Source: Planctomycetota bacterium (GTDB lineage: Bacteria; Planctomycetota; UBA8742; UBA2392). Taken from it: DNA of 64,000 bases. Positions 3,776-31,608 of the stretch are shown here, in pieces. The stretch covers positions 1 through 64,000 of the forward strand of contig JAHBXZ010000016.1 of NCBI GenBank assembly GCA_019636215.1. Direction: 5' to 3'. Each line of letters opens with the position of its first letter. Within the stretch, counting starts at the first letter, position 1. The notes below the pieces were generated by a model. That model worked only from the letters and a program-made list of their open reading frames with translations, was not told the DNA's origin and ran no database searches. Position numbers and translations under genes: made by a program.

Positions 3776-3803
3776 AATATATACGCTGGCGCGGAGTTAT
3801 CAC
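3776..3803 (-). promoter_or_regulatory. candidate sigma70-type promoter of tRNA-Pro
   Basis: TATATT (3781-3776 on the minus strand) lies seven bases before the tRNA 5' end, with GTGATA 16 bases further upstream as a weak -35. The -35 overlaps the stop codon of the SpoIIE-type regulator gene. Position and the AT-rich -10 in a GC-rich region support it. Confidence 0.5.
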
Positions 3804-6800
3804 CCCGGCGCACGCAGTTCTTCCTGCAGCCTGCGAAGATTCTCGACAACCGGCGCGCTCATGGCCGCCCCGCCTTCCAGCGCATCGTGCACACCTTGGG
3901 CCATAGCCTCGGCTTCCTGCTTGCGCCCTTGTCGAAGCAGCGTCCAGCCCAGCTCCATTTCGAAATTCAGCTTGCGTGCTGTTCCCAACTGCGCGTGAGT
4001 GTCGATGCACTCCCTGAGCAGGCGTTCGCTTTCCTTTAACGTGTCCAGGTTGCCATCGCGATGCCACTTGTCGCGAAAGTAGACTCCCAGATTTCCGCTT
4101 TGCACCGCAAGTCCGAGCCGGTCGCCAAGATCACGGTAGATTGCGCGGGCCTTGGTCAGCAGTTCGATCGAGAGTTCAAGTTCGCCCATGTCTCGACGGA
4201 TGTTCGAGATGTTCGACAACCGCATGGCCTGACCGCGTACGTTGTCCAATTCGACATCCAGCGCATAGGCCTGCTCATAGAATCGCAGAGCACCGTCTTT
4301 GTCCCCTCGAGTTGAAGCCAGGTTGCCCAGATTGTTCAGGTGTGCCGCTTCCATCGTTCGGTTGCCCTGCTCGCGACCCAGTGTCAGGGCCCGCTCAATC
4401 ATGACCTTGGCTTCGTCCAGACGCAAAAGGCTCAACGCGGCCAGGCCGCGATTGCCAAGCCAGTTGACCTCGCCAGCTTTGTCGCCGGCAGCCCGCGCGA
4501 CTTCGTAGGCCTCCTGGAAAGCCTTCTCGGCATCGGCGGGCTTTCCCCTGTAGAACTGAAGTACGGCCCGGTGGCCGGCAATGTTGCCCTCGAAATACTT
4601 GTCCCCTTCCTGGCGTGCCACCTCGATGGCGCGCTGATACAGGGTCTCTGCTTCGTCGTAGCGACCCTGAAGCGTAATGCACGTGGCCATCCAGTCTTCC
4701 GCCTCGGCCTTCTCACGCGCCGAAAGGTCTGCCCTGGCCAGCAGTCTTGCGCAATGCTCATGCAGCTGCGGAACCTTGCCGCGCGAGTGCACGCTTCGAA
4801 TCAGGGCAATGTCGGCCTCAAATCGTGCCGGGCTGTCCTCCGGAATCTCCGCCAGCATGGCCTCCGCCGCCACAGGATCCACGCGGAACATGCTGTCGCT
4901 GCGCCGAACCACCAGCCAGTGCCGAAGCGCACCGGCCGCGTCCGGCAATTGCCGGTCAATCAGTTCCAGTGCCACTTTGCCCGCGCCCTGTTGGTCCAGC
5001 GTAGTGGCCGCATAAACCGTGGCCCAGGCGGCGTCCTCTCCGTCCGTGGCGTTGCGCGAAATCTCTGTGAGTCCGTCAACTTCCAGTGCCAGGCGCTTGC
5101 GCGAGACGCGGGCCGTTGCGCCATGCCGACCCATCCACCACTTGCGTGCATACGCCAGAAGCGATTTGCGCCAGCGCTGTTGGGCTACCGCCGCGGCCGC
5201 GGGATCCAGCATTTCCGAGGCAAACGCGCGGATCGACTCATACAGAAAGAACCTGCGCTCGCCCCCGAGCTCCGGGACATCTGCAGAATCCAGGAGGCTC
5301 TTGTCCCTCAGGCTTTCCACGACGTCGATGGCCATTGGCGCATCGGGCCACTGGGCCAGGTCTACCACTTCCTCGGCTTGCTCAAGAAAGAACCCACCCC
5401 GGAACACCGACAACTGCGCCAGTGCGGCTTTCTCGTGCGGCTCCAGCAGATCCCAGCTCCAGGCAATCGCCCCACGCAGCGTGGCGTTGCGGCCGCCGTC
5501 CCGCTGGTCACGGAGAAGCTGAAAGCGCTGTTTGATGCGCTCCAGCATTTTCTGCGGCGACAGCACCCGGGCACGCGCGGCCGCCAGCTCCAGTGCCAAT
5601 GGAATGCCGTCCAGGCGTACGCACAACTGGCCCACCGCGTCAGCATTCTCGGAGTTCAGAGTGAACTCGGGGTCCCTTTCCATCACCCGGGCGACAAACA
5701 GCGCCACACTGGGAACGGCGGCCAACTGGCGCAGTGTCGCCTCGTCCACGGACTGCACCCGCTCGGTCGACTTGCGGGGCGGCACGGCAAGGGGTCGCAA
5801 CGCCAGAATCGACTCTCCAGCCAAACCCAGCGGTTCGCGACTGGTCAGCAGCCACGTGATGCCCTGCGCAGACTCGCCCCAGCGTCGAAGCAGTCCCATC
5901 AAAGCCGACAGGCATTGCTCGCAACCGTCCATGACAACCATCAGGCGACCGCCGCGGCTGACCATGCGTCCATGCAGGGCAAAGCCAAGGCGTTGGGCCG
6001 CGTCGTCTCCGCTGACCTCGACCTGCAGCGCCTTGGCCAGTGCGGCACACACCGCAGACTCATCCCGGGCTTCGCTGAGATCGCAATGCCACGCGCCGCC
6101 AGGATAGTGGGCAAGTGCCAGGCCGGCCGCAGCGATGGCCAGCCTGGTTTTCCCAATGCCGGCTGTGCCGGTTATGGTCACCGTTGCCGATCTGCTGCCG
6201 GTCAGTCGCGAGAGCACATCGGCCAGCTCGATCTCGCGCCCAATCAGCCGTGCCCCGCCAGGAGGCAGGTTTGACTCATGACTGCCCGAACTACCGGCAA
6301 GCGGCGCTGGATCAGCCACGGCCTGAAGCACCCGCAACAGAACCAGGGCTTCGTCATCATGCTGCGCGGCCCCGCGGCGGAACGAATTCAAGCGATGGCG
6401 CAGCGCATCAAGGGCCGCCATCGGGTCGCCTGCGGTGACCGCCAGGGCTTCATGCAGGCGGGCCTCGGTGAACATCTCGCGATCGGGGTTCACGGCCTCC
6501 GTGACACCATCGGTGAACAACAGCAGATCGTCACCGGCCTGCAGCTCCAGCATGTCCTCCTGCAGCGCCGCCGCTAACACTGCGCCTGGCAGCACGCCCA
6601 GCACGGTTCCATCCGGCTTGTAACTCAAGACGTCCCGGCCCCGGCGCAACAAAAGGGGTGCATGGCCGGCGCGCACAAATCGCAGCTGTCGCGTACGAAT
6701 GTTGACCACCGCGTACAGCACCGATACGAACATCCCGCGCGGAATCTCGCGCAGCAGGCTCTCATTCAGTGCCACCATCGCGTCACGCGGGCTGATGTTG

Positions 6801-7072
6801 CCTTTTGCAGCCTGCTGCAGGGACTTCTTGGCCGCGGCCATCACCAGAGCCGCTGCGGTGCCGTGCCCGCTGACGTCTGCAACCGCAATCCCCAGGTGCC
6901 ACGGGTCAACCACAACAAAATCATAGAAGTCCCCACCAACCTGTTCGCAGGCGCGGTAGTCGGCGGCAATGGCAAAGCCCGGCACGATCGGCGCGGACGG
7001 CAACATGGCGGCCTGAACGGCGCGGGCACGGCTGGATACGCTTGTTCCTTGGCGTGTGTCTGCCATCTTCAC
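3800..7072 (-). CDS. SpoIIE/RsbU-type phosphatase fused to a signalling ATPase and TPR repeats
   Basis: 1090 aa. Residues ~20-250 form a PP2C/SpoIIE phosphatase with all metal aspartates visible (GGDFYD at 46-51, ADVSGHG around D66, FTDGVTEA, HDDEAL). Near residue 300 the P-loop GTAGIGKT opens an AfsR/STAND-like ATPase (COG3903 type; 'TSREPLGLAGE', 'DGIPLALELAAAR', 'TLRGAIAWSWDLL'). The remaining ~450 residues are TPR-like helices ('AHLNNLGNLASTRGDKDGAL'). RsbU-type phosphatases usually dephosphorylate anti-sigma-factor antagonists; here the ATPase and TPR part probably gates that activity. No anti-sigma or antagonist gene is adjacent. The GTG at 7072 overlaps the stop of the PTPS-like gene (GTGA); ATG 7066 is an equally good start. 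No transmembrane segment is evident. Confidence 0.9.
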   Translation of the reverse strand: MKMADTRQGTSVSSRARAVQAAMLPSAPIVPGFAIAADYRACEQVGGDFYDFVVVDPWHLGIAVADVSGHGTAAALVMAAAKKSLQQAAKGNISPRDAMVALNESLLREIPRGMFVSVLYAVVNIRTRQLRFVRAGHAPLLLRRGRDVLSYKPDGTVLGVLPGAVLAAALQEDMLELQAGDDLLLFTDGVTEAVNPDREMFTEARLHEALAVTAGDPMAALDALRHRLNSFRRGAAQHDDEALVLLRVLQAVADPAPLAGSSGSHESNLPPGGARLIGREIELADVLSRLTGSRSATVTITGTAGIGKTRLAIAAAGLALAHYPGGAWHCDLSEARDESAVCAALAKALQVEVSGDDAAQRLGFALHGRMVSRGGRLMVVMDGCEQCLSALMGLLRRWGESAQGITWLLTSREPLGLAGESILALRPLAVPPRKSTERVQSVDEATLRQLAAVPSVALFVARVMERDPEFTLNSENADAVGQLCVRLDGIPLALELAAARARVLSPQKMLERIKQRFQLLRDQRDGGRNATLRGAIAWSWDLLEPHEKAALAQLSVFRGGFFLEQAEEVVDLAQWPDAPMAIDVVESLRDKSLLDSADVPELGGERRFFLYESIRAFASEMLDPAAAAVAQQRWRKSLLAYARKWWMGRHGATARVSRKRLALEVDGLTEISRNATDGEDAAWATVYAATTLDQQGAGKVALELIDRQLPDAAGALRHWLVVRRSDSMFRVDPVAAEAMLAEIPEDSPARFEADIALIRSVHSRGKVPQLHEHCARLLARADLSAREKAEAEDWMATCITLQGRYDEAETLYQRAIEVARQEGDKYFEGNIAGHRAVLQFYRGKPADAEKAFQEAYEVARAAGDKAGEVNWLGNRGLAALSLLRLDEAKVMIERALTLGREQGNRTMEAAHLNNLGNLASTRGDKDGALRFYEQAYALDVELDNVRGQAMRLSNISNIRRDMGELELSIELLTKARAIYRDLGDRLGLAVQSGNLGVYFRDKWHRDGNLDTLKESERLLRECIDTHAQLGTARKLNFEMELGWTLLRQGRKQEAEAMAQGVHDALEGGAAMSAPVVENLRRLQEELRAPG

Positions 7073-8477: not shown

Positions 8478-11400
8478 ATGCCGCAACACGAATACAGGCT
8501 GGCCGCGCTTGTCACACCCCTGGAGAACGGACTGTTCTTCGGGGAAAGCCTGTTCTTTCCCGAAGTGTCAAGGCTGGGGGGCAGCGCGCTGCGTGTGCGC
8601 CGCGCGCTGGCGGTCAATGCAGCGGATCTGGCGGCCCGTGTTCCAGCCGCGTTCATGCACCGGCGCGCGGTGCCGGACGAACTCGTGGTGCGCACACTTT
8701 CATTGGATGTGCCGCCGCCACGGGACACTCCACTGTGGAAGGAACCCCTTCGTCTTCAAATTCCGTGGCTTGCGTACAACGCGCCGGGGCATTGCGTGGC
8801 GTTTGTGCCCAGCCTGGCCATGGAAGTCATTGCCCCAAACGAGGCCGAGTTGCTGGGACGATTGCCTGCAGAGACGCTGGCCGCCCTGCGAAGGCGCGAA
8901 TGGGCTGCAAGCCTCTCCGCGCTGGCATGCCATTTGAGGGGCGATGAGCTGATACTTGATGTTTCGCCCCTCGCCATCCGCGTCCCGACGCCTCGCGAAA
9001 GCGCCCGCGAAACCGACCAAGGCAAGCCCGAACGTTCTGTTCTGGCCGAGGTCGCCGATGACCTGATCAAGGCAACGCTGCCGGAGGCCTGGAATGTGAA
9101 CGCCCAGGTTGCCCGGCTGGCTGACTTGCTTGGCGGGCGGACGCCCCAGAGTGTTCTGCTGGTTGGCCCGCCGGGTGTCGGCAAGACGGCAATGTTGCAT
9201 GAACTCGTGCGGCAAAGAACCCTGCATGGCCTTGGCGACACGCCATTCTTTGCCACCTCGGGTTCCAGACTGGTTGCAGGCATGAGCGGCTTCGGCATGT
9301 GGCAGGAACGCTGCGATCGCCTGCGTCTGGAGGCAGCACGCAGGGCCGCGATACTGCACCTGGGGCAGTTGAGCGAGTTGATGGAAGTCGGCAAAGGGAT
9401 GATGATCCAGCAGGGCGTTGCCGGTTTCCTGCGGCCGTACATTGCGCGTGGAGAGCTTCGCGTCGTGGTGGAGTGCACACCCAGCCAGTTGCCATTCATC
9501 GAACGGCAGGATCCCCACCTGCTTGGTTCATTCGCCCGCCTGGACGTTACCGAGCCAACGGCCGCCGATGGCGCGGACATTCTACGGCGAGCCGCTGCCG
9601 GCGCCGCCAACGAGCCGGCGCTGGATACTGTGGCGCGCCTGCATCGTCGGTATGCGACTTACTCAGCCTGGCCCGGCCGTCCTTTGCGTTTTCTGCGCAA
9701 CCTCATCGCCGACAAGGCTGGAAGTCAGTCAACGCCGGCAGACGTCTATGCGGCATTTTCGCAGGAAACCGGCATGCCGCTGGACATTCTGGATGACTCC
9801 CGACCGCTGCCGCTGGACCAAGTTCAGGCCTTTTTCGACCAGCGCATCGCCGGCCAGAAGAACGCCATCAGCCTGGTGATTGACCTTCTGGCAACAGTGA
9901 AGTCCGGCCTGGCACGGCCTCACAGGCCATTGGCGAGTTTTCTGTTTGTCGGCCCCACCGGCGTCGGCAAGACCGAGACTGCGAAGGCCCTTGCCGAGTT
10001 CCTGTTCTCTGACCGGCGCCGCGTTGTACGTTTCGACATGACCGAGTTTGCCTCGCCTGGCGCGGTACAACGTCTGATTGGAGGCGCCCATGGTGAGGGC
10101 CTGCTTACCGCCAAGGTGCGCGAACAGCCGTTTTCGGTGCTGCTTTTCGACGAGTTTGAAAAGGCTGACCCATCTTTCTTTGACCTGATGTTGCAGGTGC
10201 TTGGCGAAGCGCGACTGACTGACGCGCGCGGCAGGCTGGCCGACTTCGGCAACACCGTCGTCATCATGACCAGCAACCTTGGCGCCGAGACGTTTCTGCG
10301 CGGCCGCGTGGGCTTTGGCACCGGGGGCCTGCAGCCCGAGGATCACTTCACCGGCGCCTTGCAGCGCTTTGCACGGCCGGAACTCACCAACCGCATAGAC
10401 CGCGTGGTGCCGTTCCTGCCGCTGCCGCCAGAGGCAGTCGCGCGGGTTCTGGATAAGGAACTTGAACTGATCCGCAGACGGCCTGGCATTCGCGCTTCCG
10501 GCGCCAGTCTGGATGCTTCGCCAGAGGCACGGGCTGCACTGGTGGCCGCTGGATGGCAACCAGAGTTGGGAGCCCGGCCGCTGAAACGAGAGATTGAACG
10601 CCAGCTGTTGGTGCCGATTGCCGAGGCATTGAACACAGGTGCCAGCGCCGGCACGGAGTTTTGCTTCACTGCGCGGCACGGCAAGATTGCCCTTGAACAG
10701 CGCACGGGCGGCCAGTCGGCCCATGTCGCCGACGCGCCAGCCATGGCCGTTCTTGCCGCTGAGTGCGCCACGCTGCGGCGAAAATCCCAGTCAGCACAGC
10801 GTGCACCTGCCATTCAGGAAGTGCGCAACGAGGCCTATCGCATACGTCGCGCGCTGGAGTTTGCCGAGCAGGCCGCGCGCAAACGCGGCAAAGCCTGGAT
10901 ACCAGTTAGTGCCGAGCGTGACCGCAAACGGCTGCCGCAACTGGAGTCGATCGTTCGCAACTTCGATGAAGTGCTTGCTCGTGCGTCCGCGCTGGAAGAC
11001 AGCATGGTTCTGGCCGCATGCGGGCGGGAGCTCGCTGTCGAGGACGCTTTGCGCGCAGGCATGGATGAGTTGCGAATCCTCTGGCGAGACGCGCTTCTAG
11101 ACTTGATGCGCCTGAAGGTGCCGACGGCAGACCTCGCAACTCTGGCGCTTGCGGGTGGCAATCACGACCACGTTTTTGAACTGGGACGCGGCTATGCAGG
11201 CTGGGCCCATACGCGCGGCTTCGATCCGCGAGTTGTCTGGCACTCCCAGTCGCCCACCGATGCAGACATTGCTGACATGCGCCGGCGGGCCGAAAACGAC
11301 GCCGAGTGTCGTGCGGCCGTTGACGCTTGGCAGGCCAAGGGCAACCGGGGGTTGCTTGCCATCTTCGCGGCCAACCCGATGAAGTTTCTTGTCGAACCGC

Positions 11401-11741
11401 GCGAGGAACCGGGCACGTTGGCACTTCAGTTCTCTGGCCGCGACATCGCCCTGCACCTGGCCCCAGAGGCCGGCCGCCACGTGTTTTCGACAGGCCACGA
11501 CCAGCCTGCAAGCGAAGTCCTTGTGTCGGTGCACCCCGGTGCCGCCATGAAGCCCGACACCGCCAACTCCGGTGACGCGCCGCGGAATCTGCGTCGCGGC
11601 TACAACCTGTCTGCGCGTCTGGCCCGCGACGAACTGTTGCAGGAGACAATCGCCTGGACAGGCTCGCGCCTGGACACGGTTGTGCAACGCGGCCTGGAAG
11701 GGACCTTTGAGCGGCTGCTTGAAAGGCAGGTGGACTCATGA
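8478..11741 (+). CDS. Hsp100/ClpB-like double AAA+ ATPase, first of three (A)
   Basis: 1087 aa. A unique ~220-residue N-terminal region replaces the Clp N domain. AAA D1 has Walker A GPPGVGKT (230-237), but the Walker B position reads ILHLGQL (292-298) where ClpB has a hydrophobic-D-E motif, so D1 probably binds but does not hydrolyse ATP. D2 is intact: GPTGVGKT (492-499), LLFDEFEK (D558, E559), IIMTSNLGAE, an arginine-finger region and the ClpB D2-small 'ELGARPLKR'. About 370 extra residues follow D2, including a helical stretch rich in Arg/Glu (~775-850). A likely role is unfolding or remodelling a protein complex. No ClpP gene and no obvious tripod loop were recognised. Starts 119 bp from the divergent radical SAM gene with no Shine-Dalgarno; TATATT at 8461-8466 would give a nearly leaderless message. 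Its stop overlaps gene B by ATGA. Confidence 0.85.
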   Translation: MPQHEYRLAALVTPLENGLFFGESLFFPEVSRLGGSALRVRRALAVNAADLAARVPAAFMHRRAVPDELVVRTLSLDVPPPRDTPLWKEPLRLQIPWLAYNAPGHCVAFVPSLAMEVIAPNEAELLGRLPAETLAALRRREWAASLSALACHLRGDELILDVSPLAIRVPTPRESARETDQGKPERSVLAEVADDLIKATLPEAWNVNAQVARLADLLGGRTPQSVLLVGPPGVGKTAMLHELVRQRTLHGLGDTPFFATSGSRLVAGMSGFGMWQERCDRLRLEAARRAAILHLGQLSELMEVGKGMMIQQGVAGFLRPYIARGELRVVVECTPSQLPFIERQDPHLLGSFARLDVTEPTAADGADILRRAAAGAANEPALDTVARLHRRYATYSAWPGRPLRFLRNLIADKAGSQSTPADVYAAFSQETGMPLDILDDSRPLPLDQVQAFFDQRIAGQKNAISLVIDLLATVKSGLARPHRPLASFLFVGPTGVGKTETAKALAEFLFSDRRRVVRFDMTEFASPGAVQRLIGGAHGEGLLTAKVREQPFSVLLFDEFEKADPSFFDLMLQVLGEARLTDARGRLADFGNTVVIMTSNLGAETFLRGRVGFGTGGLQPEDHFTGALQRFARPELTNRIDRVVPFLPLPPEAVARVLDKELELIRRRPGIRASGASLDASPEARAALVAAGWQPELGARPLKREIERQLLVPIAEALNTGASAGTEFCFTARHGKIALEQRTGGQSAHVADAPAMAVLAAECATLRRKSQSAQRAPAIQEVRNEAYRIRRALEFAEQAARKRGKAWIPVSAERDRKRLPQLESIVRNFDEVLARASALEDSMVLAACGRELAVEDALRAGMDELRILWRDALLDLMRLKVPTADLATLALAGGNHDHVFELGRGYAGWAHTRGFDPRVVWHSQSPTDADIADMRRRAENDAECRAAVDAWQAKGNRGLLAIFAANPMKFLVEPREEPGTLALQFSGRDIALHLAPEAGRHVFSTGHDQPASEVLVSVHPGAAMKPDTANSGDAPRNLRRGYNLSARLARDELLQETIAWTGSRLDTVVQRGLEGTFERLLERQVDS

Positions 11742-14700
11742 AGTCCGTCGTGCCGCTTTACGTCGAGAGGTTCACGGCCGATGCCGGGGTCCAGTACTAC
11801 GTTCGCCCGCTGTTTTTTGGAATGGCGGACGCCTCGCGCGACGACCTGAAGAAAGCCACCGATTCCGTCGCCGGGCAGCTTCGCAAGCGCGCCATGGCAC
11901 TGGCCGCAGAGCCGCGTCACGATGAGATATCGGCCCTTCTGTACTCTCCGCGCGTCACCGAAGAGCACGTCCGCGTCCATATCAACCTCAAGCGCCGCAC
12001 ATTCCAGGGCCAGTATCTGTTTGCACTGTACGAGGCGCATGGACGACGCATCGCGTTTACACCTCGCCTGCCCGAGCTGCACTTCACGCTGGAGGCCGGC
12101 GATCGGTTGGAAGCACGGGCCGCGGAGGTTCTGGCCGCCTACTACAGGAATCTGGAACGTGAAGAAGTCGAGTTCCAGCCCGAATGGCACACCACTCGCG
12201 GCCAAAGCTGGCTTGCGCACCTGGAACTGAACCTGGACCTGGACAAGCTGGCACGCAGGTCCGAGAAACAACAGCAGGAGGCGGTCGAGTCCTACAAGGC
12301 CGAGGCGGGTGGCGCCGAGCTTCTGCGTGTCGGACGCAACTTGTGCGAAGCGTGGCCGGACGACCTTGATCGCGCCGTACTGCGCGAATCCTCTGTCGCG
12401 GAGCTTTCACGGCTGTTGTGGTCCAACGACAAGCGACCGCTTGCATTGGTCGGCAAGTCCGGAGTTGGCAAGACAGCATTGCTGCATGAAAGCCTGCGGC
12501 GTGCCATGGACGGTGGTCGCGTTGCGAAGGGCGGCGCGCGGCAGATCTGGCTGGTTTCGCCCCAGCGGCTGATCTCCGGCATGAGTTTTGTCGGCCAATG
12601 GGAAAACCGGCTGAACTCGATCCTGGCTGAGTGCCGGCGCCAGCGACACATCCTGTACTTCGATGACTTCCTGGGACTGTTCCGAGCCGGGCAAAGCGCA
12701 AGTTCGCGCCTGAGCGTGGCCAACGTGCTGCGACCCTATATCGAGCGCCGTGAAGTTCGGCTGCTGGCAGAGTTCACCCCTGAGGCGTTGCGGGTCTTGA
12801 GCGACCTTGATCGCGGCTGGTCTGACCTGTTTCACCAGGTGCCTGTGCCAGAGCCATCGGAGCCTGAAGTGTGGCGCATCCTGTTGCAGGTCCAGCGCGA
12901 TCTGGAGGCCCGCCACTCCGTGAGGTTTGATCTCGATGCCCTGCCTACCGTGCTGGACCTGATGCTGCGCTATCGCCGCGACGTCGCCTTGCCTGGCAAA
13001 GCAGCATCCTTCCTGGCGCAATTGGCAGGAAAGCATCGCCATGGTGCCGTGAACCGTACCGCCGTTCTTCGGGAGTTCGAGGCCGGTACCGGACTCTCGG
13101 TGACATTCCTGGACGAACGCGCCGGACTTGGCAGGGCCGAAATCGTCAAGGGTCTTCGGGCCCGCCTCATTGGGCAGGATCAGGCTGTCGACGCGATTGC
13201 CAGTGTGGTCAGCGTAGCCAAGGCCAGGCTGAACGACCCCGAGAGGCCGCTGGGCACCCTGCTGTTCCTTGGTCCCACCGGCACCGGCAAGACGCAGTGC
13301 GCCAAGGCGCTGGCAGCATGGTTGTATGGCAGTGAGTCCAGTCTGTTGCGATTTGACATGAACGAGTTCGTGGATGGCTATGCCGTTTCGAGACTGGCTG
13401 GCACCATGGACGACCCCGAGGGCCTGCTTACTTCCGCAGTTCGCCGCAGGCCATTTGCGACCATCCTATTTGATGAAATCGAAAAGGCCCACCCGGCAGC
13501 CTTCGACCTGTTGTTGCAGGTGCTGGGAGAGGGCCGGCTGACCGATGCGATCGGCCGCACTGTCGACTTTACGAACTGCGTGATCATCCTAACCAGCAAC
13601 CTTGGAACCCGGCAGGCAGGCGGCGGGCTGGGGTTCTCCGGCCACGACGTACAGGGCGAGCAGGCATACGTGAATGCCGCACGCGCGTTCTTCCGGCCGG
13701 AGTTCTTTAACCGGCTTGATTACGTTGTGCCGTTCACGGCGTTGCCCCGCGAACATGTAGAAGAGATTGCCCGTGGTTTGTTGCGTGGCGTCATGTCACG
13801 GGAAGGACTTTCGCGGCGATTGTGCGTGCTGGAAGTAGAACCTGAGGCGATGGATGCCGTGGTTGAACAGGGCTATCACCCCACACTGGGTGCCCGGGCC
13901 ATCAAACGCGCCATCGAGTCCCGATTGACTGGCCCGGTGGCGGAACAGCTGGCGGCACTGGCACCTGACGCACCGACAGTGCTTCGGCTGGGCGGTCGTG
14001 CTGGCCAGCTTCAGGTAGAGGTTTCCACACTGGTAGCCGCGGCTTCCGAGCCCGGGACCTGCGCCGCTGTCAGTTACAAGGCGTTTGACAACGTTGTGGC
14101 CCGCATAGACGCAATACTGAACCGCGCGGAGCAATGGCTTGATGAAACACGACCCACCGGCGCGCTGTCAGGCCGCGAAATCAATCCTGCCCAGCGCCGG
14201 CACTTTGCCGTAAGGCAGTTGTACACCTGGCTGGACGAGTCCGTAGAACGGCTGGTGTCCGGGGTTCAGTCGCAGTCTGAACGCAAGCCGCATCTGCGGG
14301 AAGACGGTGCCACCCAGCGCCTTCGTGACCGTGCCGGGCCGACTGCCGATATTGAATGGGACACCCTGCCCCCGGAAAGCTGGAAGTCAATCCGCGCCGA
14401 TTCTGACCTCCGGGCTCTTGCACTCGCCGCCGCGCCCGATGCCGGAAGCTGGTGGCGAGACAACAGGCTGCGGTTGCTGGCCGCCGAAGCCGCCAGGCTG
14501 AAGCTGATGCTTGATTCGCCGCCCCAGGAGCAACGCGCGCTGATTGCCTTCCGCACCCTTGATGGCCGGGGACACCCGCTGGTACAGATGCACGTCGGAT
14601 CACTGGAAGCCATGGCGCGCCGGCGGCTGGATCTTGAGGTTCGGCGCGTCGATGACCCCGCCACAAACACATACGGTCTTCTGGCGACAGGCGACCTGGC

Positions 14701-14965
14701 GTTCTCCCTGCTGCGGGGCGAGTCTGCGACGGCCCTGTTGTGGGCTGGCGGGGAACTCGGCCTGCTTAGCACGGCAGTTTCGCAGCTTGAGCCGGCCCAG
14801 AAACCTGACTTGCCCCAACCAGGACCGCTGCAAGCCGTCAGCCGGGTCTGGGTCGAGACTCGCTGCCTGGATGTTCGAACCGGAATCCTTTCACGTCAGC
14901 GACCATCGCTGGCGATGCTGCAGGTCTGGGCGGCGGGGTCGCTGATGCTGGAGGAACCGGCATGA
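11738..14965 (+). CDS. Hsp100/ClpB-like double AAA+ ATPase, second of three (B)
   Basis: 1075 aa, paralogous to its upstream neighbour. The N-terminal ~230 residues are unlike Clp N domains. D1: Walker A GKSGVGKT (239-246), Walker B ILYFDDF (D309, D310; Asp in place of Glu). D2: GPTGTGKT (512-519), ILFDEIEK (D579, E580), 'VIILTSNLGTR', 'PEFFNRLDYVVPF' and 'TLGARAIKR'. After D2 comes a ~330-residue extension with a helical segment and a C-terminal alpha/beta region ('LIAFRTLDGRGHPLVQMHVGS', 'YGLLATGDLAFSLLRGES'). That region distantly recalls peptide-chain release-factor (PCRF) folds, but this is a guess. ATGA overlaps with both neighbours indicate one translationally coupled operon, as expected for subunits of a shared complex or mixed ring. 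Confidence 0.85.
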   Translation: MKSVVPLYVERFTADAGVQYYVRPLFFGMADASRDDLKKATDSVAGQLRKRAMALAAEPRHDEISALLYSPRVTEEHVRVHINLKRRTFQGQYLFALYEAHGRRIAFTPRLPELHFTLEAGDRLEARAAEVLAAYYRNLEREEVEFQPEWHTTRGQSWLAHLELNLDLDKLARRSEKQQQEAVESYKAEAGGAELLRVGRNLCEAWPDDLDRAVLRESSVAELSRLLWSNDKRPLALVGKSGVGKTALLHESLRRAMDGGRVAKGGARQIWLVSPQRLISGMSFVGQWENRLNSILAECRRQRHILYFDDFLGLFRAGQSASSRLSVANVLRPYIERREVRLLAEFTPEALRVLSDLDRGWSDLFHQVPVPEPSEPEVWRILLQVQRDLEARHSVRFDLDALPTVLDLMLRYRRDVALPGKAASFLAQLAGKHRHGAVNRTAVLREFEAGTGLSVTFLDERAGLGRAEIVKGLRARLIGQDQAVDAIASVVSVAKARLNDPERPLGTLLFLGPTGTGKTQCAKALAAWLYGSESSLLRFDMNEFVDGYAVSRLAGTMDDPEGLLTSAVRRRPFATILFDEIEKAHPAAFDLLLQVLGEGRLTDAIGRTVDFTNCVIILTSNLGTRQAGGGLGFSGHDVQGEQAYVNAARAFFRPEFFNRLDYVVPFTALPREHVEEIARGLLRGVMSREGLSRRLCVLEVEPEAMDAVVEQGYHPTLGARAIKRAIESRLTGPVAEQLAALAPDAPTVLRLGGRAGQLQVEVSTLVAAASEPGTCAAVSYKAFDNVVARIDAILNRAEQWLDETRPTGALSGREINPAQRRHFAVRQLYTWLDESVERLVSGVQSQSERKPHLREDGATQRLRDRAGPTADIEWDTLPPESWKSIRADSDLRALALAAAPDAGSWWRDNRLRLLAAEAARLKLMLDSPPQEQRALIAFRTLDGRGHPLVQMHVGSLEAMARRRLDLEVRRVDDPATNTYGLLATGDLAFSLLRGESATALLWAGGELGLLSTAVSQLEPAQKPDLPQPGPLQAVSRVWVETRCLDVRTGILSRQRPSLAMLQVWAAGSLMLEEPA

Positions 14966-17208
14966 GCACAACACGCCTCAGCGCGCTGGTATGGGTGGAC
15001 GATTGCGGTCTGGCAAACGGCCTGCTGGTCGAGCAGCCGGAAGTCGGCGCTGTTGGCCGCGACGAGAGTGACGTCCTGGCCCAGATTAAAGAACACCTTC
15101 ACTATCTGTTGCGTGAGGCAGAGTGGGAGTTCCCGGACGACCCGATGATCGATCCGCAGTTGCTTCGCGTGCCCGTGGACATCCGGCCTGAATATCAATC
15201 CAAAGTCAGGCGATTTCCGGTCGAGCACCCCGTTCGCGTAAACATGCCGGTAGTGTTCGGGCGCTATGACGGAGGACTGCAGGGCTGCGTAGTTCCAACG
15301 CTGGGCCTTTGGTTCAGCGTGGACGATAAATCGCGCATGCACGAATTGGCCCAACACTACATCACCGAAGCACTGCGTGGCAGCACGCCACAACGCCTGA
15401 GCCGCTCTCTGCCGCCACCCGGCGTAGAACTTCGTTCACTGGCCATTACAGGCCGTGCCCCACGCAACCGCGCGCAAAGGCGACAGTTTGAGGCCCTGGA
15501 GTCGGTGGCCGAACCCCTGGGCGAAAGGGCCTCGCGTCGACGCTACTCGCGCGCCTACCAGCGTGACGCGGAACTGGCCGAGCTTGTTCGCCGCCTGTCC
15601 AAGGATCGCGCCAGCGTGCTGCTTTTAGGCGAGCCTGGCTGTGGCAAGACATCCCTTCTGGCCAGCGCCGTGCGTGAGATAGAGCGCAGCCAGCCCAGGC
15701 CCGACGAAGGCAGCCGACCTCATCAATTGTGGCAGACCACAGCAGCGCGCCTGATTGCGGGCATGCAGTTCCTGGGCCAATGGGAGCAACGACTGGAAGC
15801 CGTTCTGGCTGAGCTGGCAGAGCTTGATGGCATTCTTTGCGTTGAAAACCTGCTGGATCTCGTCCGGGTTGGCGGCGCGGGCTCGCAGGACTCCGTTGGC
15901 GCGTTTCTGGTGCCGTACCTGCGCGCGCGTGAGCTGCGAATGGTGGCCGAGTGCACGCCCGCCGAGCTTGACGCCTGCCGCAGGCTGTTGCCGGCCCTCG
16001 TCGACGCCATGCAGGTGTTACCGCTGGCAACCATGGATGCAACGGCCGCTGAACTCGCGCTGGCCGCTCTGGCTGAGTCCAGTGCCCGTAACCTGCGCGT
16101 GACTGTCGATGCCGATGTGCCTGCAACGCTTGTTCGGCTCTTCCGGCGCTTTGCACCCTATGAGGCCATGCCCGGCAAGGCCGCCGCCCTGCTGCAAAAG
16201 CTGATGCTGAGGTCCGCGACCGAAGGCCGCCCATTGAAAGCCGAGGATGCGACCGCCGAGTTCACGCGCCTGACAGGCCTGCCGGACATGCTTCTGCACG
16301 ACGACATTACGCTTAGCGCCCAAGACGTTAGGGCCAGATTGGCCTCGCAGGTAATCGGTCAGAGTGCAGCTGCCCACACCTGTGCCGGGGTGCTGACCAC
16401 GTTCAAGGCTGGCCTGAACGACCCAGGCCGTCCACTAGGAGTGCTGCTGTTTGCGGGCCCCACGGGCGTCGGCAAGACGGAAATGGCCAAGGCAGTAGCG
16501 CGGGAGCTGTTCAGCCAGGGCCATGGCAATGACCGGCTTGTCAGGCTCGACATGAGCGAATACAGCGGCCATGGCAGTGCCGAGCGCCTGGTGACCGGCC
16601 CCCAGGGCGAGCCCAGTGAACTGATCCGCCGGGTACGCGAGCAACCGTTTTGTGTGCTGTTGCTGGACGAAATTGAAAAGGCCGCCCCGGAGGTTTTTGA
16701 CGTGCTGTTGGGCATGTTCGACGAGGGCCGATTGACCGATCGTTTCGGCAGGGAAACCAACTTTCGAAGCAGTGTGATCGTGATGACCAGCAACCTGGGT
16801 GCCGGCGCGGAGAAGTCCATGGGTTTCGGCCAGGCGACCCAGCCGGACTACTCCGCCGAAGTGATGCGCTACTTCAGGCCGGAGTTCTTCAACAGGCTTG
16901 ATGCGGTAGTTGCTTTTGCGCCGCTGGATCACGGCACCATCATGCGCATCGCCGAGAAAGAACTGCATGCACTTGCCCGTCGCGAGGGCCTGTTGCGTTC
17001 CGGTGCCAGCCTGGCATGGACTCCCGCTGTAGCAGAACTCCTGGCCCGCAACGGATACGACCGAAGGTTCGGTGCGCGGCCGCTGCAGCGCGCACTGGAA
17101 GCGCTGGTAGTAGCCCCCATCGCACGGGCCATGGCGGAATCACCAACCAGCGGTGGAGTCATTCGACTGGACGTTGATGCAGAAGGCCGGGTCGTGGTGG
17201 CATCCTGA
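14962..17208 (+). CDS. Hsp100/ClpB-like double AAA+ ATPase, third of three (C)
   Basis: 748 aa; shorter because it ends right after the D2-small domain and lacks the extensions of A and B. The N-terminal ~200 residues again have no Clp N repeats. D1: Walker A GEPGCGKT (223-230), degenerate Walker B ILCVENLL (Val-Glu-Asn at 294-296, no Asp). D2: GPTGVGKT (499-506), VLLLDEIEK (D569, E570), 'VIVMTSNLGAG', 'PEFFNRLDAVVAF' and 'RFGARPLQR'. It is last in the coupled operon (ATGA with B). The same D1 position is altered differently in all three proteins, so the D2 rings are probably the motors and the D1 domains structural or regulatory. Confidence 0.85.
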   Translation: MSTTRLSALVWVDDCGLANGLLVEQPEVGAVGRDESDVLAQIKEHLHYLLREAEWEFPDDPMIDPQLLRVPVDIRPEYQSKVRRFPVEHPVRVNMPVVFGRYDGGLQGCVVPTLGLWFSVDDKSRMHELAQHYITEALRGSTPQRLSRSLPPPGVELRSLAITGRAPRNRAQRRQFEALESVAEPLGERASRRRYSRAYQRDAELAELVRRLSKDRASVLLLGEPGCGKTSLLASAVREIERSQPRPDEGSRPHQLWQTTAARLIAGMQFLGQWEQRLEAVLAELAELDGILCVENLLDLVRVGGAGSQDSVGAFLVPYLRARELRMVAECTPAELDACRRLLPALVDAMQVLPLATMDATAAELALAALAESSARNLRVTVDADVPATLVRLFRRFAPYEAMPGKAAALLQKLMLRSATEGRPLKAEDATAEFTRLTGLPDMLLHDDITLSAQDVRARLASQVIGQSAAAHTCAGVLTTFKAGLNDPGRPLGVLLFAGPTGVGKTEMAKAVARELFSQGHGNDRLVRLDMSEYSGHGSAERLVTGPQGEPSELIRRVREQPFCVLLLDEIEKAAPEVFDVLLGMFDEGRLTDRFGRETNFRSSVIVMTSNLGAGAEKSMGFGQATQPDYSAEVMRYFRPEFFNRLDAVVAFAPLDHGTIMRIAEKELHALARREGLLRSGASLAWTPAVAELLARNGYDRRFGARPLQRALEALVVAPIARAMAESPTSGGVIRLDVDAEGRVVVAS

Positions 17209-23815: not shown

Positions 23816-26800
23816 CTAGCGCACGTCAAAATACTTGGCCAGCTGGGGGTCGGTGATCAATGGTGCAAGGAACTCGTCACCCAGCACCCGCGGCCGGTTG
23901 AGATAGCCGTCGTCAAAGGCCTGCTTCAGGCACAGCACGGCAAGCGTTCGTTTGCCCATCGACCGGTTTGGCGGAAGATCCCGGGCCTGGCGAGCATAAC
24001 CGATTGCACGCAGCACCTGGTCCGCCGGAGAGGCGTAGTCAAGAATCTCCTGCCTTCGCATCTTGTCCGTATCCAGCAGAGAGATGAAGCGCTCGGGTTC
24101 CGCACCCGCCACGGCCAGAATCCGCCCCAGGTCAAAGCGGTGGCGGGCCGGCGGGAAACTGTTGCCGGCCAGCAGAACCGGGTAACGACGAGCGTCATCG
24201 GCCCAGTCTCGCAGGGTGGGCCGATAGTCTTCCGATATCAGCAGTGGTGACTCTTCCAATGCGCGCAGCAGCGCCAGCGCGTCCTCAAAGCGTGCCAGCA
24301 TGGTCAACGCGCGCCCCTTGAACAACAAGACCACCGGAGGCGTTGCCGGTCCGGACTGCGCGGCAATGGTGTCACACAGCAGTTCCAGCTGGCGATACTC
24401 ATGATCGCGCAACAGCACACCTGCAGCATTGACGAACGTGCGCACCCCATGCGGCGTGCTTTCATGCAGTGCCGCCAGCACCAGTGCAGTCATGCGCGTG
24501 TACTCGCCCGTACTCGCCGTCAACTCAACTTCAATCAGGTCAATCGCGTGGTTGTCCAGGCCGCTTTGTGACTTGCGCATGGCGTCCAGGTGGCGCATTG
24601 CCGCCACAGTCTGACCTTCGCGCACATGAATGCGCAGCATCAGCTTGTGTGCGTCGGCATAGCCCGGGTTGAGACGAACCGCGGCTTCAAGATCCGCGAT
24701 TTCGGCGGCGGCATTGCGTTCACTCTCACTGCTGAAGCGCAAAGTCGCCCTCGAGAAGTAGCCGCGAGGGTCATAGGGAAACTGTGATGTGAACCGGTCC
24801 CACAGCGCAATGCCTGCGCGTTCACGCCCGGACTCACGGCGGCCGATCTCGCGCACCTCCAGCCATGTAAGCAGCGGCAGGTTGGGCTTCAGCTCGCGCG
24901 CGCGCTGAAGGTAACTGCGGCCCATCACGCGCGGCGATGCGCCGGCATCTTCATCCACGATCGCCAGCAGCGTGTAAACCTCCCACAGCGGCACACCTTC
25001 GCCTTCGATGGCGGCAAGCTTCTCGCTGGCCTCGCGGCTGGCCTTGATGAATTCCTGCAGCGTTGCCGTGCGGTAGCTCTCGCCAAGATCCAGCAGCACC
25101 TGGGCAATCCGCGCGTAGTTGCTGCCGGGCTCGGCGGCATCACGCACCGGCGCGAAGCGACGGAATACTTCGTCAAAGTTTGCGCTCAGTCCCTCGCGCA
25201 GAACCTTGCGCTGGAAGTCGTACATGGCAAACGCCATCAGCGCCTCAACGTGTCCGCGGCCGGTCTGGGCTGCCGTCAGCGCATCGCCGCGCGCGTAGTG
25301 GTACAGCGCCTCGTCGTCAAAGCCCAAGTCCGCCAGAATGCCCGCAAGTTCCAGGTGTGCCTCCACGAAACTGGGGTCAAGGCGAATGGCGCGCTGGTAA
25401 AGCCCGACCGAAAGCCGCCACGTTTCCGCCCGGATGCCCCAGTCCTGAAACGTTGCGCTTCTGGCCCGTAAGTCGGAAGCCTGGCTGTAAGGGCCGAACG
25501 CGGCCTTTCGGGCGTTGAGTGCCTCTGCCTCTTTGGCGTCGCGCTCGCGTTTTTCAGCCTCCAGTGTTGCCACGCGCTCGGCCTCTATGCGGGCCTTCAC
25601 TGCCTGGTCACGGGCTTCGGCCTCGGCGCGCAGCCGGCGCTGGGCCTCGTTTCGCGCGCCGGCTTCGGCCTCGGCGGTTTCCTCGGCCAGCCGTGCACGG
25701 TCTTCGGCGAACTTGGCGCGGGCAACCGCGGCCACCGCCCCGCCCAGCAGCACAAACACGATGGCCAAGGTCATGACGGCGGCGCGTGTCGGGTTGCGCC
25801 TGGCCCACTTGCTGAGAGACGTCCAGGGCGAATCCCTGTGCGCCGAGATTGGGCTGGCAGACAGATAGCCCTCAATGTCGCGCTTGAAGTCCGCCACACT
25901 GTTGTAGCGCAGCTCGCGCCGCTCCTTCATGGCTCGCATGGCAATGCTGACCAGTTCGCGGGGGTGTTTTCGGCCGCGCGCGATACCTTGCTCGCCAAAC
26001 GCGCGGCGCAGCTGGTCGTTGCGAAGCACAGCTTCCAGTTTTTCGCGTGGGGCCAGCAGCCTGTGTTCGCGGGCGTTGTCCAGGGCCTCGGTGATCGTGG
26101 CAGCCAGGAACGGCGGCACCAGGCACAGCATCTCGTACAGGATGCCGCCCAGGCAGAAGATGTCGGTCCGCTGGGTGATTTCCGCCACCAGTCCGCGCGC
26201 CTGTTCCGGAGACATATAGGCCGGTGTGCCGCTGATCGTGCCTTCGCGTGTGCCGCCGGTGTCGCCGTCGGTGCTGCCCAGGCTTACCGCCAGCTCGTAT
26301 TGCGGGGTGTCCTGTTTGGGGATTGCATCGGTTTTCTTGCCCGGTCGAATCTGTTTGGCCAGGCCCCAGTCCATGACCAGCACTTCGCCGAACTGCCCGA
26401 CCATGATGTTCTCGGGCTTCAGGTCGCGATGAACGATGCCCCGCGAGTGCGCGAACTCAATGGCGTCACAGATCTTCAGCAGAATCGACAACAGTCTCCC
26501 AGGCCCGAACTCCGCCAGGGTTGCGGCATGCCCCTGCCGCAGCTTGTCCATGATGTGTCGCAGGCTGCGGCCCTTTACGCGCTTCATCGTGAAGTAAACA
26601 CGACCCTGCGCATCCAGGCCAAGTTCATGCACGGGCACGATGTTCGGGTGTTCCAGCGAACCGGTCAGCTGGGCTTCGGCGATGAAGCGATTCACCGGCC
26701 CGGTGTCCATGGGCGAGCCGCTGTCGGTTTCGGCGCGGCGCGTGTCGCGCAAAAGCACCTTCATGGCGACGTTGCGGTCAAGATCGCTGTCCTGGACCTC

Positions 26801-27076
26801 CAGCACCGCGCCCATGCCGCCGCGGGCAATCTCGCCCAGCACCTTGTAGCGCTCAGACACATGGTGGCCGTGGGCCATTTCCTGCCGGTGTTCTTCGGCG
26901 GCCTTGCGTGCAAGCTTCTCGGAAAGGCCATCGAGGTCCAGCAGGGTACTGCCGCCTTCGTTGAAGGCCGTGCCGTCGCCGTCTGCACCCACGCGTTGCA
27001 TGGACGCCATGGACTCGAGCTCTAGAAAGCCCGTATCCAGTTTGAGGTCGTTGGTGATGGTCGACTGATCGTTCAT
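23816..27076 (-). CDS. receptor-type Ser/Thr protein kinase with TPR tail
   Basis: 1086 aa. Kinase domain at about 70-400: glycine loop GEIARGGMGAV, VAMKVL lysine, HRDLKPENI, a DWG in place of DFG (VMDWGLAK) and GTPAYMSPEQARG. A juxtamembrane stretch precedes one membrane helix (TRAAVMTLAIVFVLLGGAVAA, ~430-450), then an Arg/Glu/Ala-rich coiled coil (~455-520) and ~550 residues of TPR-like repeats. The TPRs would lie outside the membrane if the kinase is cytosolic. It probably senses and phosphorylates envelope-linked partners; no target is evident. Ten bases separate its stop from the convergent transketolase gene. The DWG kinase with TPR tail is typical of Planctomycetota-like genomes. Confidence 0.92.
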   Translation of the reverse strand: MNDQSTITNDLKLDTGFLELESMASMQRVGADGDGTAFNEGGSTLLDLDGLSEKLARKAAEEHRQEMAHGHHVSERYKVLGEIARGGMGAVLEVQDSDLDRNVAMKVLLRDTRRAETDSGSPMDTGPVNRFIAEAQLTGSLEHPNIVPVHELGLDAQGRVYFTMKRVKGRSLRHIMDKLRQGHAATLAEFGPGRLLSILLKICDAIEFAHSRGIVHRDLKPENIMVGQFGEVLVMDWGLAKQIRPGKKTDAIPKQDTPQYELAVSLGSTDGDTGGTREGTISGTPAYMSPEQARGLVAEITQRTDIFCLGGILYEMLCLVPPFLAATITEALDNAREHRLLAPREKLEAVLRNDQLRRAFGEQGIARGRKHPRELVSIAMRAMKERRELRYNSVADFKRDIEGYLSASPISAHRDSPWTSLSKWARRNPTRAAVMTLAIVFVLLGGAVAAVARAKFAEDRARLAEETAEAEAGARNEAQRRLRAEAEARDQAVKARIEAERVATLEAEKRERDAKEAEALNARKAAFGPYSQASDLRARSATFQDWGIRAETWRLSVGLYQRAIRLDPSFVEAHLELAGILADLGFDDEALYHYARGDALTAAQTGRGHVEALMAFAMYDFQRKVLREGLSANFDEVFRRFAPVRDAAEPGSNYARIAQVLLDLGESYRTATLQEFIKASREASEKLAAIEGEGVPLWEVYTLLAIVDEDAGASPRVMGRSYLQRARELKPNLPLLTWLEVREIGRRESGRERAGIALWDRFTSQFPYDPRGYFSRATLRFSSESERNAAAEIADLEAAVRLNPGYADAHKLMLRIHVREGQTVAAMRHLDAMRKSQSGLDNHAIDLIEVELTASTGEYTRMTALVLAALHESTPHGVRTFVNAAGVLLRDHEYRQLELLCDTIAAQSGPATPPVVLLFKGRALTMLARFEDALALLRALEESPLLISEDYRPTLRDWADDARRYPVLLAGNSFPPARHRFDLGRILAVAGAEPERFISLLDTDKMRRQEILDYASPADQVLRAIGYARQARDLPPNRSMGKRTLAVLCLKQAFDDGYLNRPRVLGDEFLAPLITDPQLAKYFDVR

Positions 27077-27210: not shown

Positions 27211-31608
<4,398 letters not shown>

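Follow-up and report, generated by a model that had tools for sequence, protein, structure and literature searches.

Three coupled Hsp100-type ATPase genes, two with putative RF2-like tails, form a candidate hetero-oligomeric system in Planctomycetota

Hsp100 motors and release factors are both textbook families, and to our knowledge their physical joining is not known. Amongst described systems, ClpI has intact ATPase and unfolding motifs and an M domain, with neither a release factor nor an operon mentioned in its description (PMC10149685), and Dom34/Pelota and MRPS35 are inactive release-factor paralogues (PMC6514570). Here we describe three consecutive genes, P1, P2 and P3 (together the trio), at positions 8478 to 17208 of a 64,000-nucleotide stretch of a Planctomycetota bacterium genome (contig JAHBXZ010000016.1, positions 1 to 64,000, hereafter the window). 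Each encodes a protein with two AAA+ modules (D1 followed by D2), and the three appear to belong to a family in which an Hsp100 was fused to a release factor, the latter lost its catalytic parts, ATPase and pore functions were split between the two rings, and the gene was then triplicated and co-inherited.

The P1-P2-P3 operon is genuine, as all three frames are conserved across genera and two phyla, which excludes chance open-reading frames. A first-pass annotation of the window had described three consecutive genes coupled by ATGA, and the overlaps are indeed present at 11738 and 14962. The features of the operon are:

8478..11741, forward strand: P1, double-AAA+ Hsp100-type ATPase of 1087 amino acids with a putative degenerate RF2-like tail
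8478..9047, forward strand: P1 N-domain, not Clp_N, homologous to the N-domains of P2 and P3
9090..9827, forward strand: P1 D1, Walker A GPPGVGKT retained; DE missing from Walker B (ILHLGQ); GMSGFGMW, with the pore aromatic replaced; RR finger lost
9843..10643, forward strand: P1 D2, GPTGVGKT, LLFDEFEK, NRID and GARPL intact; no GYVG pore loop
10641..11741, forward strand: P1 tail, putative RF2-like module with helical bundle, domain 2 (E.G.H motif) and C-terminal stretch but no GGQ domain
11738..11741, forward strand: ATGA stop/start overlap of P1 and P2
11738..14965, forward strand: P2, double-AAA+ Hsp100-type ATPase of 1075 amino acids with a putative, strongly degenerate RF2-like tail
11738..12370, forward strand: P2 N-domain, homologous to the P1 N-domain
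12371..13123, forward strand: P2 D1, GKSGVGKT retained; Glu replaced by Asp in Walker B (YFDD); pore aromatic present (GMSFVGQW)
13133..13960, forward strand: P2 D2, ATPase motifs intact; no GYVG pore loop
13961..14965, forward strand: P2 tail, probable remnant of an RF2-like module, detected only through the profile of single-gene (G1) tails
14962..14965, forward strand: ATGA stop/start overlap of P2 and P3
14962..17208, forward strand: P3, double-AAA+ Hsp100-type ATPase of 748 amino acids without an RF2-like tail
14962..15525, forward strand: P3 N-domain, homologous to the P1 N-domain
15547..16251, forward strand: P3 D1, GEPGCGKT retained; DE missing from Walker B (CVEN); pore aromatic present (GMQFLGQW)
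16264..17142, forward strand: P3 D2, ATPase motifs intact; no GYVG pore loop

Pfam matched AAA_2 and ClpB_D2-small over D2 in each of the three proteins, returned weak generic AAA matches only over the divergent D1, and found no Clp_N domain in P1, P2 or P3, in agreement with the first description of two AAA+ modules without a Clp N domain. The D1 and D2 Walker A motifs lie about 261-293 residues apart, so none of the three has a ClpB-length M domain. When motifs were tabulated for 88 members of the family and five Clp references (an earlier alignment comprised 19 members), the catalytic glutamate of the D1 Walker B (DE) proved to be lost in 88 of 88 members, with DD instead in P2, whilst the D1 Walker A is mostly retained. 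The D1 RR finger is gone from P1-P3, and the D1 pore aromatic is retained in most P2, P3 and G1 members (G1 being one type of single-gene relative) and replaced in P1. The D2 Walker A, Walker B, arginine finger and GAR motifs are intact in nearly all of the 88, yet the D2 GYVG pore loop, found in all five Clp references, occurs in no family member. Together, the D1 Walker-B loss, the intact D2 motifs and the missing D2 pore loop indicate that D2 should be the site of ATP hydrolysis, and D1 that of substrate gripping, if any; with the D2 pore loop lost, an 'unfolding machine' in the ClpB sense, as originally proposed, is doubtful. P1-P3 have the defining marks of the Hsp100 superfamily (AAA_2, ClpB_D2-small and intact D2 motifs), and none of those of ClpB, namely two active ATPase rings, a D2 GYVG loop and an M domain. 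They score 290, 344 and 299 bits (P1, P2, P3) against ClpB TIGR03346, for which the curated cut-off is 1232, 258, 323 and 277 bits against ClpA TIGR02639 (cut-off 993) and 214-268 bits against ClpV TIGR03345 (cut-off 885), and PADLOC defence families gave no whole-protein match, just generic AAA-domain overlap. The initial label was ClpB/ClpA-type proteins; judged by motifs and profile scores, P1-P3 belong to a distinct Hsp100 family, neither ClpB nor ClpA.

The origin of the tails is clearest in the single-gene relatives, which are of two types, G1 and G2. Tails of single-gene relatives match prfB (TIGR00020) and Pfam PCRF, and a five-sequence tail profile of single-gene relatives recovered 41 matches in PDB, all of them RF2 or RF1 (best 2.2e-41). 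In profile-profile comparison, where hhalign E-values are those of single comparisons, 22 G1 tails matched RF2 at 100% (E 7e-41, 337 columns), and RF2 was a better match than RF1. GGQ and SPF are both missing in 22/22 G1 tails, whilst FW[DN], E.G.H and VR.Y..D...VL.G.LD.F are mostly retained and a degenerate domain 3 and the C-terminal stretch are still present, across many families. By sequence, the G1 tail is a full-length, inactivated RF2 module. G1 examples are L025, L026, L027, L028, L029 and relatives, several with N-terminal HEAT repeats; G2 examples include L030, L031, L164 and L184, amongst others, and L031 apparently has N-terminal membrane segments. The G2 tails match RF2 at 97.4% and G1 at 99.9%, and the P1 tail profile matches RF2 at 95.4% (E 2e-8) and G1 tails at 97.8%, with E.G.H present at its RF2 position in 17/19 P1 tails. 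The P2 tail profile matches G1 tails at 96.0%, and reversed and unrelated control profiles reached at most 2.5%. Alignment depth matters for P1: its match to RF2 was 5.8% in the first profile test and 95% only with deeper alignments, and a P1 tail profile built from the window's family alone gave 44% to RF2 and 96.9% to G1. The P1 tail had no direct match in PDB, and its structure model was too poor for a fold search (pLDDT 49.6 overall), although a helical bundle is predicted at residues 33-157 (pLDDT about 70-92). Domain 3, the GGQ domain, is absent from the G2, P1 and P2 tails. By these profile comparisons the P1 and P2 tails would be degenerate forms of the RF2-like module with the GGQ domain deleted, and the simplest reading is a series from RF2 through G1, G2, P1 and P2 to no tail. 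Neither the probable inactivated RF2 modules in the tails nor the family-wide loss of catalysis in D1 and of the pore loop in D2 had featured in the first-pass annotation.

It had described distinct N-termini as well as distinct tails; both are divergent, but the N-domains are not unrelated, being mutually homologous in profile comparison (P1-P2 93%, P1-P3 71%). The N-domain structure model was too poor for a fold search (pLDDT 36.5). A HicB-like double repeat suspected by eye in the N-domains gained no support from a half-versus-half profile comparison, and was rejected.

In a tree of 97 rows, G1, G2 and P3 are single clades, as very nearly are P1 and P2, and P1, P2 and P3 each cover families f1, f14, f58 and f61, apart from the single-gene relatives. 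The only misplaced rows are two divergent trio-like genes of L159 (G236:C81, a 7.2 kb contig), which belong to neither the P1 nor the P2 clade. Relatives occurring singly had been named as grounds for rejecting a three-part system; such singles exist, but they form the separate subfamilies G1 and G2, with no stray P1, P2 or P3 amongst them. Orthologues of P3 were found in 23 sampled planctomycete genomes, comprising 15/16 of the window's family and eight genomes from seven other families, and the P3-based search returned relatives in the window's family plus singles elsewhere. The loci retrieved from the phylum of a named Planctomycetota record were identical to those of the own-phylum search, which places the window in Planctomycetota. 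The family also occurs in 5/199 Acidobacteriota and 1/249 Pseudomonadota genomes, whilst a plasmid search gave no match spanning 80% of the query. Asked of other genomes, as the first-pass annotation had suggested, the P1-P2-P3 order proved to be retained in f1, f14, f58 (G136), f61 and one Acidobacteriota genome. G102 and G151 carry P1, P2 and P3 with each gene on a contig of its own, whilst in G457 the three share one contig, with P3 apart and in the opposite orientation; none of the three occurs in G003, which belongs to the window's family. Only some trio genes are visible in G097, G233 and G236, which are fragmented assemblies. In one Acidobacteriota genome a repeat array that reads GICWTH/GVFAGP/GYLLDP in different frames (L214:11204-11821, reverse strand) sits between P2 and P1. 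On this phylogeny P1, P2 and P3 are separate ancient clades and an old unit. The ATGA coupling, the shared order, the separate old clades, the retention of all three when unlinked and their joint absence suggest a joint function, which fits the earlier proposal of a three-part machine insofar as it describes a joint unit; its further element, co-assembly in a mixed ring, we infer, together with a remodelling activity and a ribosomal target.

We tentatively favour, at somewhat less than even odds, a reading in which the trio is one hetero-oligomeric, D2-powered Hsp100 remodeller with RF2-derived docking modules, possibly directed at ribosomes. The paralogous subunits P1, P2 and P3 would assemble into one hetero-oligomer in which the D2 ring alone hydrolyses ATP, whilst the D1 ring would bind nucleotide, be catalytically dead and present the aromatic pore residues of P2 and P3. 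The P1 and P2 tails, RF2-derived and without the peptidyl-hydrolase domain, would act as docking modules, for which the likeliest partner is the translation machinery (ribosomes whose A site is empty, or factors bound there), and the ring would pull or displace a ribosome-bound client. The ribosomal target, whose one ground is the RF2 ancestry of the tail, is the weakest step. Several observations weigh against this reading. The lost SPF is the known stop-codon contact and the lost GGQ the peptidyl-transferase contact, so ribosome binding in the manner of RF2 is not assured; P3 is without any RF2 part, and the P2 tail matches RF2 directly at 3%. There is no translation-related gene context beside the trios, except one tsaD in one genome, and co-retention and shared order point to a joint function rather than to a mixed ring. 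A more specific proposal makes the trio a new machine for translation quality control: an Hsp100 ring of three subunits, seated on ribosomes through inactivated RF2 modules, that would remodel or clear stalled or idle ribosomes by D2-only ATP hydrolysis. This is possible but less likely than not. A family that joins an Hsp100 to a release factor in this way would connect bacterial translation with the remodelling of proteins, and its trio would be one of the rare candidates for an Hsp100 hetero-oligomer.

The trio may instead be one hetero-oligomer in which the RF2-like tail has taken on a new role, either forming a scaffold or lid over the D2 face or offering a platform to a non-translation client, a possibility to which we give roughly the weight of the quality-control proposal. 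The loss of SPF and GGQ, the strong divergence of the P1 and P2 tails, the tailless P3 and the want of translation genes recurring nearby all agree with this, but the G1 singles retain the whole RF2 fold, including the C-terminal stretch and the degenerate domain 3, beyond what a bare scaffold needs. It is unlikely that the operon yields three distinct homohexamers serving different clients. In favour of this, the D2 ATPase is complete in all three proteins, with arginine finger and sensor 2, the single-gene relatives must work without paralogues, and in G102 and G151 the three genes are spread over separate contigs; against it, the trio is co-retained even when unlinked, one genome lacks all three, the genes are ATGA-coupled, and P1 alone is without a D1 pore aromatic. 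A duplicated ordinary ClpB-like disaggregase or ClpA-like protease partner is very improbable, since the detectable similarity to ClpB and ClpA profiles falls far under the NCBIfam cut-offs, the D1 catalytic glutamate and D2 pore loop are lost in every member, the M domain is missing and the genome has ClpB/ClpA-like genes of its own elsewhere. That profile comparison has produced a spurious link of the P1 and P2 tails to RF2, the tails being unrelated helical domains, is just as hard to credit: the missing PDB match of P1 and the poor direct score of P2 speak for it, and the P1 match to RF2, the 96-98% of both tails to G1, the low controls and the positioned E.G.H motif speak against it.

Genes annotated around the trio in the window encode a radical-SAM protein, a SpoIIE phosphatase-TPR protein, ALAD, an amino-acid kinase and two TPR-bearing Ser/Thr kinases, and the same genome encodes, elsewhere, two ordinary release-factor genes besides its ClpB/ClpA-like genes. 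As stated at the outset by the first-pass annotation, no type VI secretion system, ClpP, DnaK or defence gene is found amongst the annotated neighbours. The SpoIIE-type phosphatase (3800-7072, reverse strand) has an AAA/NB-ARC-like stretch and TPRs, and several genomes of the window's family have a relative of it upstream of their trio. The two Ser/Thr protein kinases are large (23816-27076 and 27211-31608, both reverse strand), the second with a long TPR array. In one complete planctomycete genome a tsaD gene (tRNA modification; L155:7912-8976, forward strand) lies directly upstream of the trio; none was seen at the other trios. Amongst the genes beside the trios, examined for a conserved partner, no neighbour recurs across families, so the trio seems self-contained.

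Text searches of open-licence papers gave no description of a Clp/Hsp100-release factor fusion, of a hetero-Hsp100 or of this trio, an earlier description elsewhere being possible, and a text search of the 2019 release-factor survey (PMC6514570) for Clp or PCRF gave no match; in these papers the early suggestion of an undescribed system was borne out, and the Hsp100-RF2 fusion family and the trio are apparently undescribed. With ClpB/Hsp104 the trio shares two AAA+ modules, the D2 large and small domains, and the D2 Walker A/B, arginine finger and sensor 2, but it is without the Clp N and M domains, the D1 Walker-B glutamate and the D2 GYVG loop, and has a different N-domain, an RF2-like tail and three paralogues per operon. 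The short D1-D2 linker without a long M domain recalls ClpA/ClpC, from which the trio differs in scoring far under the ClpA cut-off, in having no ClpP gene seen nearby and in the same motif losses (D1 Walker-B glutamate, D2 GYVG). ClpI of Actinomycetota is likewise a divergent double-ring Clp class alongside ClpB and ClpC (PMC10149685), whereas the trio family has the motif losses and no M domain. RF2, which is nearer than RF1, is matched over its full length by the G1 tails and more weakly by P1, yet the family tails lack GGQ and SPF, are fused to an Hsp100 and, in G2, P1 and P2, have domain 3 deleted. Dom34/Pelota and MRPS35, not described in PMC6514570 as fused to AAA+ motors, resemble the family in that a release-factor fold is reused without the catalytic glutamine (PMC6514570).

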